The notes under the pieces: model-generated
What the model was told of the DNA's origin: nothing
Databases searched by the model: none
What the model saw: the letters and a program-made list of their open reading frames with translations, nothing else
Part shown: piece by piece, positions 33,352 through 38,046 of the stretch
Position numbering within the stretch: the stretch's first letter is position 1
Layout of the letters: each line of letters begins with the position of its first letter
Assembly: GCF_014653175.1 (NCBI RefSeq)
Contig: NZ_BNAG01000004.1
Span: forward strand, 310,001-374,000
DNA from: Roseivirga thermotolerans
GTDB taxonomy: Bacteria; Bacteroidota; Bacteroidia; Cytophagales; Cyclobacteriaceae
Length of the DNA: 64,000 nucleotides
Reading direction: 5' to 3'
Made by a program: the position numbers and the translations under genes

Positions 33352-34251
33352 ATGAGCGAGTTTTTAATAACAGACGACTCTATTAATAATAACCTACAGG
33401 CTTCTAAAAGGCTGACCAACGCTGATTTTAATAAAATTAAGACACGGGCCGACCTTGAAGCAGTATTGCAGAGTAAGAATAGAGATTACAGCAAGGCCCT
33501 TTTTAATCTGGAGTATGAGCGACAGTTGGAACAACTACAGATTGAACTGGTGAAATGGCAACGATGGGTGGCCGAAACGCAGCAGCGGGTGGCAATAATT
33601 TTTGAAGGCCGTGATGCTGCCGGAAAAGGGGGATCTATAAAGAGATTTATCGAGCACATGAACCCGCGTTCGTTACGCGTGGTAGCTCTTAACAAGCCAA
33701 CCGATCTGGAAAAAAAGCAATGGTATTTTAGGCGCTATATCAAGGAGCTGCCCAATGCTGGCGAAATAGTATTTTTTGATCGAAGCTGGTACAACAGGGC
33801 TGTGGTAGAGCCGGTAATGGGATTTTGCAGCGAGGAGCAGTATCAACAATTTATGCGTCAGGTGCCTGAGTTTGAACATATGTTGTTTGAGGATGGGGTT
33901 CATGTAATTAAACTCTGGTTTTCCATTAACAAAGAAGAACAGCATCGGAGGTTCGAAGACCGCAGAAACAACCCACTTAAACAATGGAAGTTGAGCCCGG
34001 TTGATGAAAAGGGACAGGAAATGTGGGAGAAATATACCTACTACAAAGAGCAAATGTTTGCCCGAACGCACACCACATTTAGCCCCTGGACCATTATTAA
34101 AACCAATAAAAAGAAGATAGCCCGCTTGGAGAGTATTCGCTATGTGCTTTCCAAATTTGAATATGATGGTAAGGAAAGTGCCAATACCACCGTGTTGCCC
34201 GATCCGAATGTGGTAATGAGGTTTCACCGTTCAATTTATCACCTGGTATAA
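33352..34251 (+). CDS. ppk2: Polyphosphate kinase 2, first copy
   Basis: Transfers phosphate between inorganic polyphosphate and nucleoside diphosphates in the cytoplasm. In 299 residues the Walker A is GRDAAGKGG at 86-94 and the Walker B region is DRSWYNRA at 143-150. The helical lid WYFRRYIKELPNAGE and KLWFSINKEEQHRRFEDR match single-domain (class I-type) PPK2. It has about 45 extra N-terminal residues relative to the neighbouring copy and a C-terminal extension. The stop codon shares a base with the next ATG (TAATG), so the two copies are translationally coupled. Confidence 0.94.
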   Translation: MSEFLITDDSINNNLQASKRLTNADFNKIKTRADLEAVLQSKNRDYSKALFNLEYERQLEQLQIELVKWQRWVAETQQRVAIIFEGRDAAGKGGSIKRFIEHMNPRSLRVVALNKPTDLEKKQWYFRRYIKELPNAGEIVFFDRSWYNRAVVEPVMGFCSEEQYQQFMRQVPEFEHMLFEDGVHVIKLWFSINKEEQHRRFEDRRNNPLKQWKLSPVDEKGQEMWEKYTYYKEQMFARTHTTFSPWTIIKTNKKKIARLESIRYVLSKFEYDGKESANTTVLPDPNVVMRFHRSIYHLV

Positions 34252-35039
34252 TGGATAAGAAGTATATGTTTTCAGAAAAGGAGCTAAGGCTTCTTAATAC
34301 CAATAAGGCCATAAAACTATTGCTGGCACAGGGCGATGAAATTAACCCCGAGAAAGTGTTGCGTTATGTGCGTTATGAAAAAACTCTCGAAGACCTGCAG
34401 GTAGAACTTATTAAAATGCAGCAGTGGGTGATTAAAAATAACAAGCGGGTTTGTCTTCTGTTCGAAGGCCGTGATGCGGCCGGAAAAGGGGGAGCAATCA
34501 GACGGGTGACTCACCACCTGAATCCTAGAAACTACCGGGTTGTGGCCCTTCCAAAACCCACCGAACAGGAGAGAGGGCAGTGGTATTTTCAGCGCTATAT
34601 TACCCGGTTGCCTAACCCGGGAGAGATTGTTCTTTTTGACAGAAGTTGGTACAACAGAGCTGTTGTGGAGCCGGTGAATGGCTTTTGTAGTCAGGAAGAG
34701 TATGAACGCTTTATGAGTGAGGTGAACGACTTTGAGAACATGATCACCAACGATGGCATTATTCTCATGAAATTCTACTTCTCCATTACCAAAGGTGAGC
34801 AGGCCAACAGGTTCGAAGATATTGCTTCTAATCCATTGAAAAGATGGAAAATGTCTCCGGTTGATGCCAAAGCGCAGGAGCTATGGGATGTATATACCCA
34901 ATACAAAGAGCGCATGTTTGCCCATACTAATACAGACAGAAACCCCTGGATAATTCTACGGGCCAACCGAAAAACCACCGCCAGGGTGGCAGTGATTAAG
35001 CATATCCTAAAACGAATTCCGTATAAAGAAAAAGCTTAA
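34251..35039 (+). CDS. ppk2: Polyphosphate kinase 2, second copy
   Basis: A 262-residue paralogue of the upstream gene with Walker A GRDAAGKGG at 73-81, DRSWYNRA at 130-137 and the same lid (WYFQRYITRLPNPGE). Outside these motifs the two copies differ considerably, so the duplication is not recent. Side-by-side PPK2 enzymes may form hetero-oligomers or divide nucleotide or direction preference; that is inference. It converges on the pseudouridine synthase gene with a 4-bp TTAA stop overlap. Confidence 0.94.
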   Translation: MDKKYMFSEKELRLLNTNKAIKLLLAQGDEINPEKVLRYVRYEKTLEDLQVELIKMQQWVIKNNKRVCLLFEGRDAAGKGGAIRRVTHHLNPRNYRVVALPKPTEQERGQWYFQRYITRLPNPGEIVLFDRSWYNRAVVEPVNGFCSQEEYERFMSEVNDFENMITNDGIILMKFYFSITKGEQANRFEDIASNPLKRWKMSPVDAKAQELWDVYTQYKERMFAHTNTDRNPWIILRANRKTTARVAVIKHILKRIPYKEKA

Positions 35040-35734
35040 CAAAACCCAAGTGGGTGCTTAAACCCCAGTGTTCGAAACATTCTCAAAAATTCAGGCTGGG
35101 GAGAAGCCTGTATTTGAATCTCCCGGCTCAAAATTGGATGTCTGAAGCTTAATGAACAAGCATGCAAGAGCATGGTGTTCATGTTCCATTTTTCCAAAAA
35201 GAGCTTGTTTTGTTTATTGCAGCCATGAGGCCTGTCGCCAATGATTGGGTGCAGGATGTGTGCAAAGTGCTTCCTGAGCTGATGCATTCTTCCGGTTTCG
35301 GGTTTGGCTTCAACCAACGAGTATCTTGATGTAGGATGCTTGCCAAATGGAACTGCAACTTCAGTTCTATCCAACGTCTTATAATGCGTTACCGCTTGCT
35401 GAGTTTTGTCTTTGTCGTTGGTTAAGGCATAGTCAATAGTGCCTACATCATCCGTGTAGCCTCGTAAAATGGCCCAATAGATTTTGGAGACGGAGTGTTC
35501 TTCAAACTGCACCATCAAATCCGTTATCAGTTCTTTATTCAACGCGAAGAGTAAAACGCCCGAGGTCTTTCTGTCTAATCTATGGATGGGGTACACGTGT
35601 TGACCGATTTGATTTCTAAGCTCTTGCACAGCATAAGTATCGGTGTTGGTAGCAATAGGGGAGCGATGTACCAGCAGACCATGGGGTTTGTTAATGGCTA
35701 TGAGGTGGGAGTCTTGGTAGAGGATTTCGAGCAT
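35036..35734 (-). CDS. RluA/TruC-type pseudouridine synthase
   Basis: Converts a uridine in tRNA or rRNA to pseudouridine. Starting at ATG 35734 (MLEILYQDSHLIAINKPHG) gives 232 residues; the longer frame runs into repeat-flanking DNA. The catalytic motif is HRLDRKTSGVLLFA (the Asp is the nucleophile), followed by RMHQLRKHFAHILHPIIGD. The length and lack of an S4 domain resemble TruC (tRNA U65), but RNA targets of this family cannot be assigned by eye. Repeat array 1 starts about 50 bp upstream of its start codon. Confidence 0.9.
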   Translation of the reverse strand: MLEILYQDSHLIAINKPHGLLVHRSPIATNTDTYAVQELRNQIGQHVYPIHRLDRKTSGVLLFALNKELITDLMVQFEEHSVSKIYWAILRGYTDDVGTIDYALTNDKDKTQQAVTHYKTLDRTEVAVPFGKHPTSRYSLVEAKPETGRMHQLRKHFAHILHPIIGDRPHGCNKQNKLFLEKWNMNTMLLHACSLSFRHPILSREIQIQASPQPEFLRMFRTLGFKHPLGFC

Positions 35735-35786
35735 GGGGGTAATGAGTATTGCGTACCGGGTATTGCGATGATGCAAGGTTCAAAGA

Positions 35787-36742
35787 TACGTCACCCTGAA
35801 TTTATTTCAGGGTCTTTTTCAGCGATAAAATAGATGCTGAAACAGGTTCAGCATGACGTTTTTTCTTAGTGTTGTCACCCTGGACTTGATTCGGGGGGGC
35901 TTCCTCAAAGATTCACAAGATGCTGAAATAAATTCAGCATGACGTTGTTTTATTGTGTCGTCACCCTAAACTTGATTCAGGGTCTTCTTCAAAGATTCAG
36001 AGGATGCTGAAATAAGTTCAGCATGACGTTTTTTCTTAGTGTCGTCACCCTGAATGCGTTTCAGGGTCTTCCTCAAAGAATCAATAGATGCTGAAAGAAA
36101 TTCAGCATGACGTTCTTTTTTAGTGTCGTCACCCTGGACTTGATTCAGGGTCTTCCTCAAAGATTCAATAGATGCTGAAACAAGTTCAGCATGACGTTTT
36201 TTCTTAGTGTCGCCACCCTGGACTTGATTCGGGGTCTTCCTCAAAGATTGACAAGATGCTGAAACAAGTTCAGCATGACGTTTTTTCTTAGTGTCGTCAC
36301 CCTGAACTAGTTTCAGGGTCTTCCTCAAAGAATCAATAGATGCTGAAAGAAATTCAGCATGACGTTCTTTTTTAGTGTCGTCACCCTGGACTTGATTCAG
36401 GGTCTTCCTCAAAGATTCAATAGATGCTGAAACAAGTTCAGCATGACGTTTTTTCTTAGTGTCGCCACCCTGGACTTGATTCGGGGTCTTCCTCAAAGAT
36501 TGACAAGATGCTGAAACAAGTTCAGCATGACGTTTTTTCTTAGTGTCGTCACCCTGAACTAGTTTCAGGGTCTTTCTTAAAGATTCAGAAGATGCTGAGA
36601 CAAGTTCAGTATGACGTTTTTTCTTAGTGTCGCCACCCTGAACTTGATTTAGGGTCTTCTCCGAAGATTCAGAAGATGCTGAAACAAGTTCAGCATGACG
36701 TTGTTTTATTGTGTCGTCACCCTGAATGCGTTTCAGGGTCTT
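35787..36742. repeat. Array 1: tandem 84-bp double-hairpin repeats (11 units)
   Basis: Units begin (at GATGCTGA or variant) at 35833, 35919, 36003, 36087, 36171, 36255, 36339, 36423, 36507, 36591 and 36675, giving a period of 84 bp after a first step of 86. Each unit has two palindromes: P1, TGCTGAA-5 nt-TTCAGCA, and P2, ACCCTGAA-5 nt-TTCAGGGT. They are separated by a T-rich linker (TTTTTTCTTAGTG) and an 18-bp spacer (TTCCTCAAAGATTCAATA-like). The array begins and ends with a P2. Spacers are conserved, not variable. Because 84 is a multiple of 3, the minus strand stays open and encodes a 28-residue repeat (HAELVSAS...), which I regard as incidental. Confidence 0.95.
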
Positions 36743-37054
36743 TCAAACATCATAGTCTAGATTGATTCCAATAGACTCTGAAAGGTCGTTGAGTTCGGGG
36801 TTATGTTCTTTTACAAGATTCCATTTCCATTCCCTATGCCAATTCTTTAGCTGCTTTTCTCTAGCTATGGCTTCCTGAATACTAGAGAATTCTTCATGAT
36901 ATATCAGGTCGGTACAGTGATACTTTTTGGTGAATGTTGAACCATTATGTTGTTTATGTTGAAGGACTCTGGATATCAATTCAGAAGTGACGCCAATGTA
37001 CAGAACAGTTCTTCCTGGATTTGACATGATATAAACAGAGCCTCCTTTTGCCAT
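36743..37054 (-). CDS. GIY-YIG nuclease family protein lodged between the repeat arrays
   Basis: 103 residues comprising a single GIY-YIG domain of the UPF0213/YhbQ-like type. It has VYI at 7-9 and YIG at 19-21 (the two motif halves), R29, and the metal-binding Glu in AIAREKQLKNWHREWKW (E66), followed by an FxSxxEAxxREK pattern typical of the family. No other domain is attached. The stop codon lies directly against the last P2 hairpin of array 1 (36721-36742), and a P2-P1-type element starts about 50 bp upstream of the start codon (37108 onward). Gene and repeats therefore look like one module. Members of this family are small DNA nucleases; a role in moving or processing the repeats is my inference. 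Confidence 0.9.
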   Translation of the reverse strand: MAKGGSVYIMSNPGRTVLYIGVTSELISRVLQHKQHNGSTFTKKYHCTDLIYHEEFSSIQEAIAREKQLKNWHREWKWNLVKEHNPELNDLSESIGINLDYDV

Positions 37055-37107
37055 ATAACAATATAAGGCTTTTGCAGATCATCGGAAAAGCCTGAGATGA
37101 TAGGGCA

Positions 37108-37851
37108 CCGTCATCCTGAACTCGTTTCAGGATCTCGCTAGGGCTGAGAGGATGCTGAAATAAATTCAGTATGACGTTTTTTCTTAGTGTTGTCACCCTA
37201 GACTTGTTTCAGGGTCTTTCTCAAAGATTCACAAGATGCTGAAACAAGTTCAGCATGATGTTGTTTCTTAGTGTCGTCACCCTGAACTCGTTTCAGGGTC
37301 TTCCTCAAAGATTGACAAGATGCTGAAACAATTTCAGCATGATGTTGTTTCTTAGTGTCGTCACCCTGAACTCGTTTCAGGGTCTTTCTCAAAGATTCAG
37401 AAGATGCTGAAACAAGTTCAGCATGACGTTCTTTTTTAGTGTCGTCACCCTGAACGCGTTTCAAGGTCTTCCTCAAAGAATCAATAGATGCTGAAATAAA
37501 TTCAGCATGACGTTCTTTTTTTAGTGTCGTCACCCTGGCCTTGTTTCAGGGTCTTCCTCAAAGATTCAGAAGATGGTGAAACAAGTTCAGCATGACGTTT
37601 TTTCTTAGTGTTGTCACCCTAGACTTGTTTCAGGGTCTTCCTCAAAGATTCAATAGATGCTGAAATAAATTCAGCATGACGTTGTTTTATTGTGTCGTCA
37701 CCCTGAATGCGTTTCAGGGTCTTTCTCAAAGATTCAGAAGATGCTGAAACAAGTTCAGCATGACGTTTTTTCTTAGTGTTGTCACCCTGAATTTGATTCA
37801 GGGTCTTTCTCAAAGATTCAGAGGATGCTGAAATAAATTCAGCATGACGTT
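37108..37851. repeat. Array 2: tandem 84-bp double-hairpin repeats (9 units)
   Basis: Units begin at 37151, 37235, 37319, 37403, 37487, 37572 (variant GATGGTGA), 37656, 37740 and 37824, so the period is 84 bp with one 85-bp step. The structure is the same as array 1. The outermost unit next to the GIY-YIG gene (37108-37175) is the most divergent: its P2 reads CATCCTGAACTCGTTTCAGG and its linker is different, resembling a solitary ancestral element. The other end stops at the ywbE stop codon (37852-37854). Confidence 0.94.
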
Positions 37852-38046
37852 CTAAGAGAGAATTTCCTTTACCCGGCCCACCTGACCATCTTCCAGCCGT
37901 ACTTTGATGCCGTGGGGATGGGAGGGCGATTTAGTGAGTAAGTCCTTTACAAAACCATGGGTTAGCTTGCCAGTTCTTTGATCTTGCTTGAGCACAATGT
38001 TGACCTCTGTACCCGGTTTGATATCTGCTCTTCTTGTTCCGTCCAT
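37852..38046 (-). CDS. ywbE: YwbE family protein
   Basis: 64 residues matching the small conserved YwbE family: MDGTRRADIKPGTEVNIV, then VLKQDQRTGKLTHGFVKD and SPSHPHGIKVRLEDGQVGRVKEI. The fold is likely a small beta-barrel (KOW/OB-like), and a nucleic-acid-linked role has been suggested by shape only. The ATG overlaps the preceding stop by one base (TAATG on the minus strand). Array 2 abuts its stop codon exactly. Confidence 0.9.
   Translation of the reverse strand: MDGTRRADIKPGTEVNIVLKQDQRTGKLTHGFVKDLLTKSPSHPHGIKVRLEDGQVGRVKEILS

Follow-up and report, generated by a model that had tools for sequence, protein, structure and literature searches.

A small GIY-YIG nuclease as a candidate mobilising enzyme of CGTC-tagged palindromic repeats

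Do some families of bacterial palindromic repeats owe their spread to a nuclease of the GIY-YIG type? The question is raised by a locus of Roseivirga thermotolerans contained in a stretch of 64,000 nucleotides (contig NZ_BNAG01000004.1, positions 310,001 to 374,000; this whole stretch is called the window below), where a gene for a small GIY-YIG protein lies between two tandem arrays of paired, CGTC-tagged palindromes. The initial annotation of this DNA had likened the layout to that of repetitive extragenic palindromes (REPs) and REP-associated tyrosine transposases (RAYTs), with a GIY-YIG enzyme replacing the Y1 transposase. The likeness is supported by the association of gene and palindromes, by the specificity of palindrome types and by the lack of a Y1_Tnp match in the genome. 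We give a probability of roughly 0.72 to the reading that the GIY-YIG protein serves as the nuclease of a family of elements that resembles REP/RAYT and arose independently, gene and palindromes together making up an autonomous form and palindromes without the gene a non-autonomous one.

The search of named genomes found at least 569 relatives of the window protein. The best 80 were kept and 79 used (L037 being the gene of L014); with 29 loci from the genus and family, this made 108 tested loci, 104 of which offered 100 bp or more of flank on either side of the gene. These are the best-scoring relatives, closest to the flanked members, and the fractions obtained from them are not prevalences. 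GTC-headed palindromes were present within about 150 bp of the gene on both sides at 59 of the 104 loci, on one side at 19 and on neither at 26, versus 1, 19 and 109, respectively, for 129 other open reading frames (ORFs) of the same loci. Some of the 26 negative loci hold longer interrupted repeats invisible to the scanner, such as GTCATTGCGAG..GCAATC. Comparison of the upstream flank with the reverse complement of the downstream flank gave a score of 13 or more at 68 of 104 loci and in 4 of 591 shifted windows from the same loci. A second sample, consisting of the 29 top-scoring loci (28 usable) from a draw of 296 Bacteroidota genomes, showed GTC-headed palindromes on both sides in 22 cases, on one side in 5 and on none in 1 (control ORFs: 0, 2 and 6 of 8), and inverted flank matches at 17 of 28 loci versus 0 of 53 controls. 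The link between GIY-YIG genes and such elements that the initial annotation had proposed is thus borne out in both samples. Lastly, among 40 copies hand-picked blind to their flanks (38 from the genus and two from G032, a genome of the same family), 35 were flanked on each side by repeats that match one another, in inverted (13 copies) or direct orientation, versus 3 of 148 control windows.

Throughout the genus and family many relatives are flanked by palindromes, the sequence of which varies by lineage, and several GIY-YIG subfamilies are flanked by whole REP pairs as direct repeats instead of inverted single palindromes. The partnership spans many phyla: record titles of the best 80 of the at least 569 relatives name Bacteroidota, Alpha- and Gammaproteobacteria, Nitrospirae, Leptospiraceae, Omnitrophota and others. 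Phage records yielded relatives at less than 60% identity only, in 13 records. The pairing of the stems is kept, two variable pairs being complementary in 38 and 37 of 40 distinct CTGAA palindromes, and the first stem pair is A-T in 35 of the 40. The base preceding GTC is C in 78% of the ends of 67 REP pairs and in 69% of the ends of 74 cassettes, that is, GIY-YIG genes with their two palindromes.

The type of palindrome follows the protein subfamily. A tree was built from 78 proteins with a flanking palindrome, 63 of which fell into six palindrome classes defined by sequence after seeing the data. On this tree, which rests on few columns and has many weak forks, 12 class changes are needed versus a mean of 34.0 for shuffled classes, and none of 200 shuffles was as low. 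Since host relatedness alone could give such a match, the comparison was extended to several genes from each genome (57 in total, from 18 genomes, namely 17 of the genus plus G032, which is near the genus; 26 pairs with similar outer context were dropped). Between genomes, protein identity correlated with flank similarity (rho 0.300, 1,483 pairs); when flanks were permuted within each genome, the mean was 0.051 and the maximum 0.173 in 500 permutations. As the observed value exceeds all of these, genes residing in one genome tend to keep each its own palindrome. Among the loci listed, the LKNWH subfamily pairs with CTGAA palindromes, the KKWNREWKERQI subfamily with ATTCCCGCG or ATTCCTGC palindromes and the KRWNRRWKEELI subfamily with CCCAGCTTGACTGGG palindromes; other subfamilies go with GTCATTCTGAG..GAATCT, GTCATTGCGAG..GCAATCT and further types.

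Copy number of the repeats follows the presence of the gene across the phylum. In 295 Bacteroidota genomes besides the window's, 10 or more CTGAA palindromes were found in 23 of 30 genomes with a close homologue (E <= 1e-26) versus 10 of 265 others (Fisher p 1.4e-20, a nominal value since genomes are related, with both cut-offs set after seeing the data). Inside one family the figures are 18 of 19 versus 1 of 16. Eight of the 10 high-count genomes classed as others do carry a homologue, with E between 2e-25 and 3e-19, and of the seven genomes that combine a close homologue with a low count, three have other palindromes at the gene (L241, L244, L249). Inside the genus the relation is untidy.

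Comparison with relatives showed the window locus to be an insertion. Of the 17 genomes of the genus with a clear orthologue of the flanking PseudoU_synth_2 gene, the GIY-YIG gene adjoins it in the window's genome only (about 1.5 kb of upstream sequence was compared in 15 of the 16 relatives; in G016 it was 162 bp, up to the end of the contig). The matches to DUF2196 and PseudoU_synth_2 are about 2.08 kb apart in the window and 5-190 bp apart in 11 relatives. At the same junction G003 has a REP pair of another type and G005 a single palindrome. Genes of the window subfamily in G003, G009 and G018 (73-75% identical) lie on contigs other than those of the PseudoU_synth_2 genes. Elsewhere, Azospirillum lipoferum 4B carries a cassette that splits the sufB-sufC pair; it is missing in A. 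ramasamyi, A. oryzae and strain B510, the flanks of which are 95-97% identical. The same sufB-sufC junction holds cassettes of different palindrome types in A. lipoferum and Shinella sp. PSBB067 (L122, L129), which may point to a preferred target. Between gltA and lpxB, S. meliloti Ak57 has an intact cassette plus an internally deleted copy, and Sinorhizobium K101 (95.6%) a single two-headed palindrome. Likewise, a cassette separates fnrL from a response regulator gene in Sphingobium TomMM7A, where TomTYG74 has a two-headed palindrome without GIY-YIG cassette and TomTYG72 shows, by eye, neither cassette nor palindrome. Thus, empty sites bear a two-headed palindrome in some cases and no visible one in others.

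Near-identical cassettes are dispersed within genome G219: four of them, each on a contig of its own, share 93-96% identity, confined to 408-554 bp (among the matches listed). In three, similarity continues beyond the cassette for another 55-60 bp or so in both directions, up to outer inverted ends, TTGTAGATGT..ACATCTACA, and a larger element therefore carries them. In the fourth (L266), ungapped identity stops at GGTC and GACC, the palindrome tags. The insertion at L263 is missing in G112, G084, G157 and G096; at the L265 site, compared in G084 alone, the beginning of the outer element is present there with other contents. A family resembling miniature inverted-repeat transposable elements (MITEs) shares the ends TTGTAGATGT..ACATCTACA (L263-L265, L268, L303-L306); some members enclose a two-headed CGTC palindrome, others an entire GIY-YIG cassette. 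No excess of target-site duplications was detected: direct repeats of 4-9 bp at the ends of the 67 REP pairs and 74 cassettes never exceeded the permutation range, in a test where palindromic arms mask short duplications and which includes a few same-site plasmid duplicates and possibly a few chance pairs. Relatives of RAYTs, too, are not known to leave a target duplication.

The protein itself is compatible with such a role. Seven residues are invariant in 28 aligned sequences, the window protein included (Y8, Y19, G21, R29, H33, E66, N85), and six of them (Y8, Y19, R29, H33, E66, N85) correspond to what we take to be the catalytic GIY-YIG motifs (two Tyr, Arg, His, Glu, Asn). An AlphaFold2 model of the protein has a mean pLDDT (predicted local distance difference test) of 91.8. 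The best Foldseek matches in the PDB were UPF0213 BH0048, Slx1 and the UvrC N-domain, none at E <= 0.001. The small UPF0213-type proteins (PDB 1zg2) resemble it in fold and size (Foldseek E 3.3e-3) and match weakly in sequence (E 0.27); Slx1, a branched-DNA nuclease according to PDB titles, resembles it in fold. Searches of NCBIfam and PHROGs with the window protein gave weak matches only, those of NCBIfam far below cut-off. Annotations of relatives include "GIY-YIG nuclease family protein" and "excinuclease ABC subunit C". The window genome has six PF01541 places, and it holds a broken GIY-YIG gene with ATTCCTGC palindromes. Four other PF01541 proteins, judged to be UvrC, a fusion of the DnaQ type and two small proteins, are without the family's repeats, two of them having one chance-like GTC-palindrome on one side.

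How might such a protein move palindromes? What the comparisons show is association, specificity, insertion relative to relatives and dispersal of near-identical cassettes; that the protein recognises and cuts the hairpin and causes the movement is inferred. The basic unit would consist of two CGTC-tagged palindromes in opposite orientation, CGTCA-stem-loop-stem-TCT .. AGA-stem-loop-stem-TGACG. With a GIY-YIG gene between the two palindromes it would form the autonomous cassette, mostly of about 340-480 bp in all; with a short spacer only, the non-autonomous REP pair of about 60-140 bp in all, which would accumulate in the genome. We imagine that the palindromes extrude as hairpins or cruciforms, and that each GIY-YIG subfamily recognises the hairpin of its own palindrome. 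Since Slx1-Slx4 processes branched DNA, as PDB titles state, the fold suits hairpins or cruciforms, and a Slx1-like nuclease could nick near the CGTC tag at the hairpin base, where the C before GTC is also conserved. The freed unit would be pasted elsewhere without target duplication, or else be copied during repair, and REP pairs devoid of a gene would be moved in trans. Unequal exchange or slippage between copies could produce tandem arrays like the two of the window, and slippage between palindrome arms could delete the interior, leaving one two-headed palindrome.

The repeats concerned are already known. CGTC-tagged REPs were described as a superfamily in 2013, apparently without a dedicated transposase, and the portion of that report consulted leaves their mover open, suggesting mobilisation by a broad spectrum of transposases (PMC3733652). 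There, Di Nocera, De Gregorio and Rocco equate some of these REPs with Neisseria dRS3 and Rickettsia RPE-6/RPE-4 and name A. lipoferum, S. meliloti, Neisseria and Rickettsia conorii as hosts. In A. lipoferum, in S. meliloti and in a Neisseria record, palindromes of the CGTC type flank the GIY-YIG gene on either side. Judged by their letters, the window palindromes are members of this superfamily: like it, they have a terminal unpaired CGTC/TGTC tag, a stem of 8-9 bp with A-T as first pair, a loop of 4-5 bp (5 bp in the window) and many copies, mostly as oppositely oriented dimers. A difference is the tail, TCT in the window unit and CCA in most, though not all, of the published REPs (PMC3733652), so that a deviating tail does not rule membership out; several alphaproteobacterial loci do show the CCA tail. 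Given how broadly and how specifically the pairing recurs, the GIY-YIG nuclease is probably the enzyme, long missing, by which CGTC-tagged REPs are spread, and very likely their cognate enzyme. We lean, somewhat less firmly than for the reading as such, towards the extension that dedicated GIY-YIG mobilisers serve the whole superfamily in all bacteria that carry it, as a second kind of REP-transposase system with a separate evolutionary origin, Slx1-like cutting of hairpins at CGTC standing in for the HUH chemistry of RAYTs.

The repeats are therefore not new; the GIY-YIG partnership is, as far as the open-licence papers listed show. The portion of the 2013 report consulted does not contain the term GIY-YIG (PMC3733652), and a term search of the accessible text of the 2025 RepRanger paper (PMC12306157) found CGTC once, in the references, and neither RAYT nor transposase nor nuclease. 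No link of GIY-YIG proteins to REPs, to the REP doublets called REPINs or to RAYTs was found among the papers listed from the open-licence part of PubMed Central, a coverage that is incomplete and leaves preprints and subscription papers outside; the remark in the initial annotation that the partnership is not well described agrees with this. The system resembles REP/RAYT modules (REPtrons) in having a small nuclease gene flanked by palindromes thought to be moved by the nuclease, and in the presence of several repeat-specific enzymes per genome (for RAYTs, in the portion of PMC3733652 consulted). It differs in the enzyme, which is an HUH Y1 transposase (PF01797) in REP/RAYT and a PF01541 protein in the window, and in the tag, GTAG versus CGTC. 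Because it has neither the Y1 enzyme nor the GTAG tag, the window system is REP/RAYT-like without being a member of REP/RAYT.

A number of observations weigh against the nuclease as mover. G247, with 30 CTGAA palindromes, falls outside the homologue-bearing genomes; G341 has 34 and a weak homologue only; within the genus, G006 has no homologue for its 8 palindromes, the cognate subfamily has no close gene in G008 (52) or G016 (36), and G005, with 29, has only a broken cognate gene. Decay of the gene after the spread of its repeats would explain these cases, and the window genome itself offers a broken gene for comparison. Polymorphism is modest: when 50 kb of Sphingobium plasmids were compared, the two near strains proved to share the GTC-headed pairs of TomMM7A. 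The dispersal of the three G219 cassettes with outer ends may be due to another transposase. As to the fourth, allowing gaps extends its alignment beyond the upstream tag by eight AT-rich bases, AAAATATA, and its right flank was without counterpart in the three relatives searched for an empty site. Finally, three of eight loci from the plasmid collection (L117, L119, L120) have no convincing flanking palindromes; the other five have them. L120, on plasmid p1 of Planktothrix agardhii, places the GIY-YIG gene between an MmeI-type restriction enzyme gene and DISARM drmA, and the scanner detects no palindromes beside it.

GIY-YIG homing nucleases are a known class, and the main competing explanation, to which we give limited credence, is that the gene is a homing parasite: a free-standing nuclease that copies itself into existing CGTC-tagged REPs, ideally two-headed ones, and moves none of them. 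Two-headed palindromes occupy the sites where relatives of Sinorhizobium K101 and Sphingobium TomTYG74 have the cassette, and MITE copies with a two-headed palindrome exist in G112 and G219. The REPs of G247 and G006, devoid of the gene, also fit, and a match between protein and palindrome type would be expected under homing as well. Free-standing GIY-YIG homing endonucleases do resemble the window gene in that a nuclease gene behaves as a mobile unit; they differ in having a separate DNA-binding region or an intron context, the window protein being one 103-aa domain, and in that genes of the window type are flanked by palindromes which also multiply without the gene. Homing leaves the spread of short REP pairs unexplained, and their copy number tracks the cognate gene. 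Furthermore, since the arms of the two palindromes form direct repeats, two-headed palindromes are equally expected as slippage scars, and at some empty sites (Azospirillum sufB-sufC, Sphingobium TomTYG72) no GTC-headed palindrome was visible by eye.

Less probable still is a passenger or regulatory role, in which a host or defence nuclease binds REPs, or lies where REPs collect, and the REPs are moved by a Y1 transposase or by the transposase of a larger MITE. The outer element with terminal inverted repeats around G219 cassettes speaks for this, as does the broad spectrum of transposases suggested in the portion consulted of Di Nocera 2013 (PMC3733652). Also in its favour, Y1_Tnp matches occur in 14 of 19 genomes of the genus; G002, G003, G005, G017 and the window genome have no PF01797 match. 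At 10 Y1 loci of the genus (three compared over short upstream flanks), a GTC-palindrome was present within 300 bp in one case, on one side only. Y1 (RAYT-like) genes at L253, L256, L257 and L259 are flanked by other palindromes, such as AACCGTTTTAACGGTT and TAGCCCACGGTTTAAACCGTGGGCTA, and constitute a second REP-like system in the sister genomes. With no Y1_Tnp match in its genome, and with the Y1 genes of sister species carrying other palindromes, a RAYT was ruled out as mover in the window genome. A passenger also fits poorly with the subfamily-specific matching inside genomes, with a gene that is not at a conserved site, and with the four other PF01541 proteins of the window genome that are without the family's repeats.

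This leaves the arrays, the features of which are collected below.

Table 1. Features of the GIY-YIG locus (positions in the window)
Feature	Position	Strand	Remarks
PseudoU_synth_2 gene (PF00849)	35036..35776	-	One edge of insertion; orthologues in 16 relatives
Left array: 11 complete 84-bp inverted pairs of CGTC-tagged palindromes, then lone P1	35789..36742	.	Tandem Repeats Finder: period 84 bp, 11.3 copies
Lone P1 palindrome	36716..36742	+	GTCACCCTGAATGCGTTTCAGGGTCTT; right after GIY-YIG gene
GIY-YIG nuclease gene	36743..37054	-	103 aa, single domain; PF01541 E 8e-15
Candidate decayed upstream partner palindrome	37078..37101	-	ATCATC..GATGAT; about 25 bp before start codon
Right array: 9 complete units	37109..37851	.	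Tandem Repeats Finder: period 84 bp, 8.9 copies
DUF2196 gene (PF09962)	37852..38046	-	Other edge of insertion

The twenty 84-bp double-palindrome units (11 + 9) that the initial annotation had counted around the gene were all recovered, together with a lone twenty-first P1; read unit by unit, the two arrays contain 21 P1 heads and 20 P2 halves. A unit consists of an inverted pair, CGTCA-P1-TCT .. AGA-P2-TGACG, and a spacer of about 16 bp, and the spacing between units is 84 bp except for one each of 82, 85 and 86. The stems are ACCCTGAA-N5-TTCAGGGT and ATGCTGAA-N5-TTCAGCAT. The CTGAA-N5-TTCAG core, said earlier to be shared by the palindromes, is intact in many halves and degenerate in several. 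P1 units open with CGTC or TGTC (CGCC in three), and the unpaired tail is mostly CTT. The unit closest to the gene in the right array (37110) is unlike the others (GTCATCCTGAACTCGTTTCAGGAT). The stop codon, described as abutting an array, proved to lie within the tail of the lone P1, which is the counterpart of the downstream palindrome of cassettes in relatives. The weak palindrome upstream of the gene occupies, by eye, the position of upstream palindromes that are intact in L009 and L012, and could possibly be a decayed partner. Genome-wide (4.21 Mb), the elements greatly exceed chance: there are 74 copies of the core versus 3 of the reversed pattern, and 55 GTCA-headed palindromes versus 0 for a control pattern. 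The same palindrome forms two more arrays, at C2:561464-561856 and C2:653263-654100, which lie away from all six PF01541 places; arrays therefore need no adjacent gene. The former (L203, G000:C2:561000-562400) has units of about 124 bp, the spacers of which contain sub-repeats of about 17 bp resembling, by eye, the palindrome head.

In the left array units 5-6 are identical to units 8-9, which implies tandem duplication, and the long window arrays are secondary tandem duplications. That they are instead a functional tandem structure, concerned with transcript ends or chromosome structure and with the gene incidental, is very improbable, in spite of their length, their regular spacing and the two arrays away from GIY-YIG matches, because the 11 relatives in which the two flanking genes adjoin have no such array between them, the unit identities show tandem duplication, and the association elsewhere would go unexplained. 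No RNA family was found by Rfam at gathering thresholds between 35000 and 38500. Minus-strand open frames run through the arrays (35966-36496 and 37198-37533) and would encode peptide repeats of the RHAELVSAS type; they are likely to be spurious gene calls. Next to the PseudoU_synth_2 gene lie two adjacent PPK2 polyphosphate kinase-type genes (33352-34251 and 34251-35039; the second matches PF03976 and the first is similar to it), and in many relatives, too, PPK2 matches adjoin the PseudoU_synth_2 gene.

The mobilising nuclease remains the reading that we prefer. It provides CGTC-tagged REPs with a concrete candidate enzyme, the subfamilies of which have specific partners, and makes the question of their movement directly testable at the bench. 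If it is true, REP-like selfish elements would have arisen at least twice, with unrelated nucleases, and GIY-YIG enzymes would perform a form of transposition. A role would also be gained for hundreds of small proteins, the window protein having at least 569 relatives. If the extension to the whole superfamily holds as well, such systems would have produced the repeat families that give rise to spurious HAELVSAS-type peptides.

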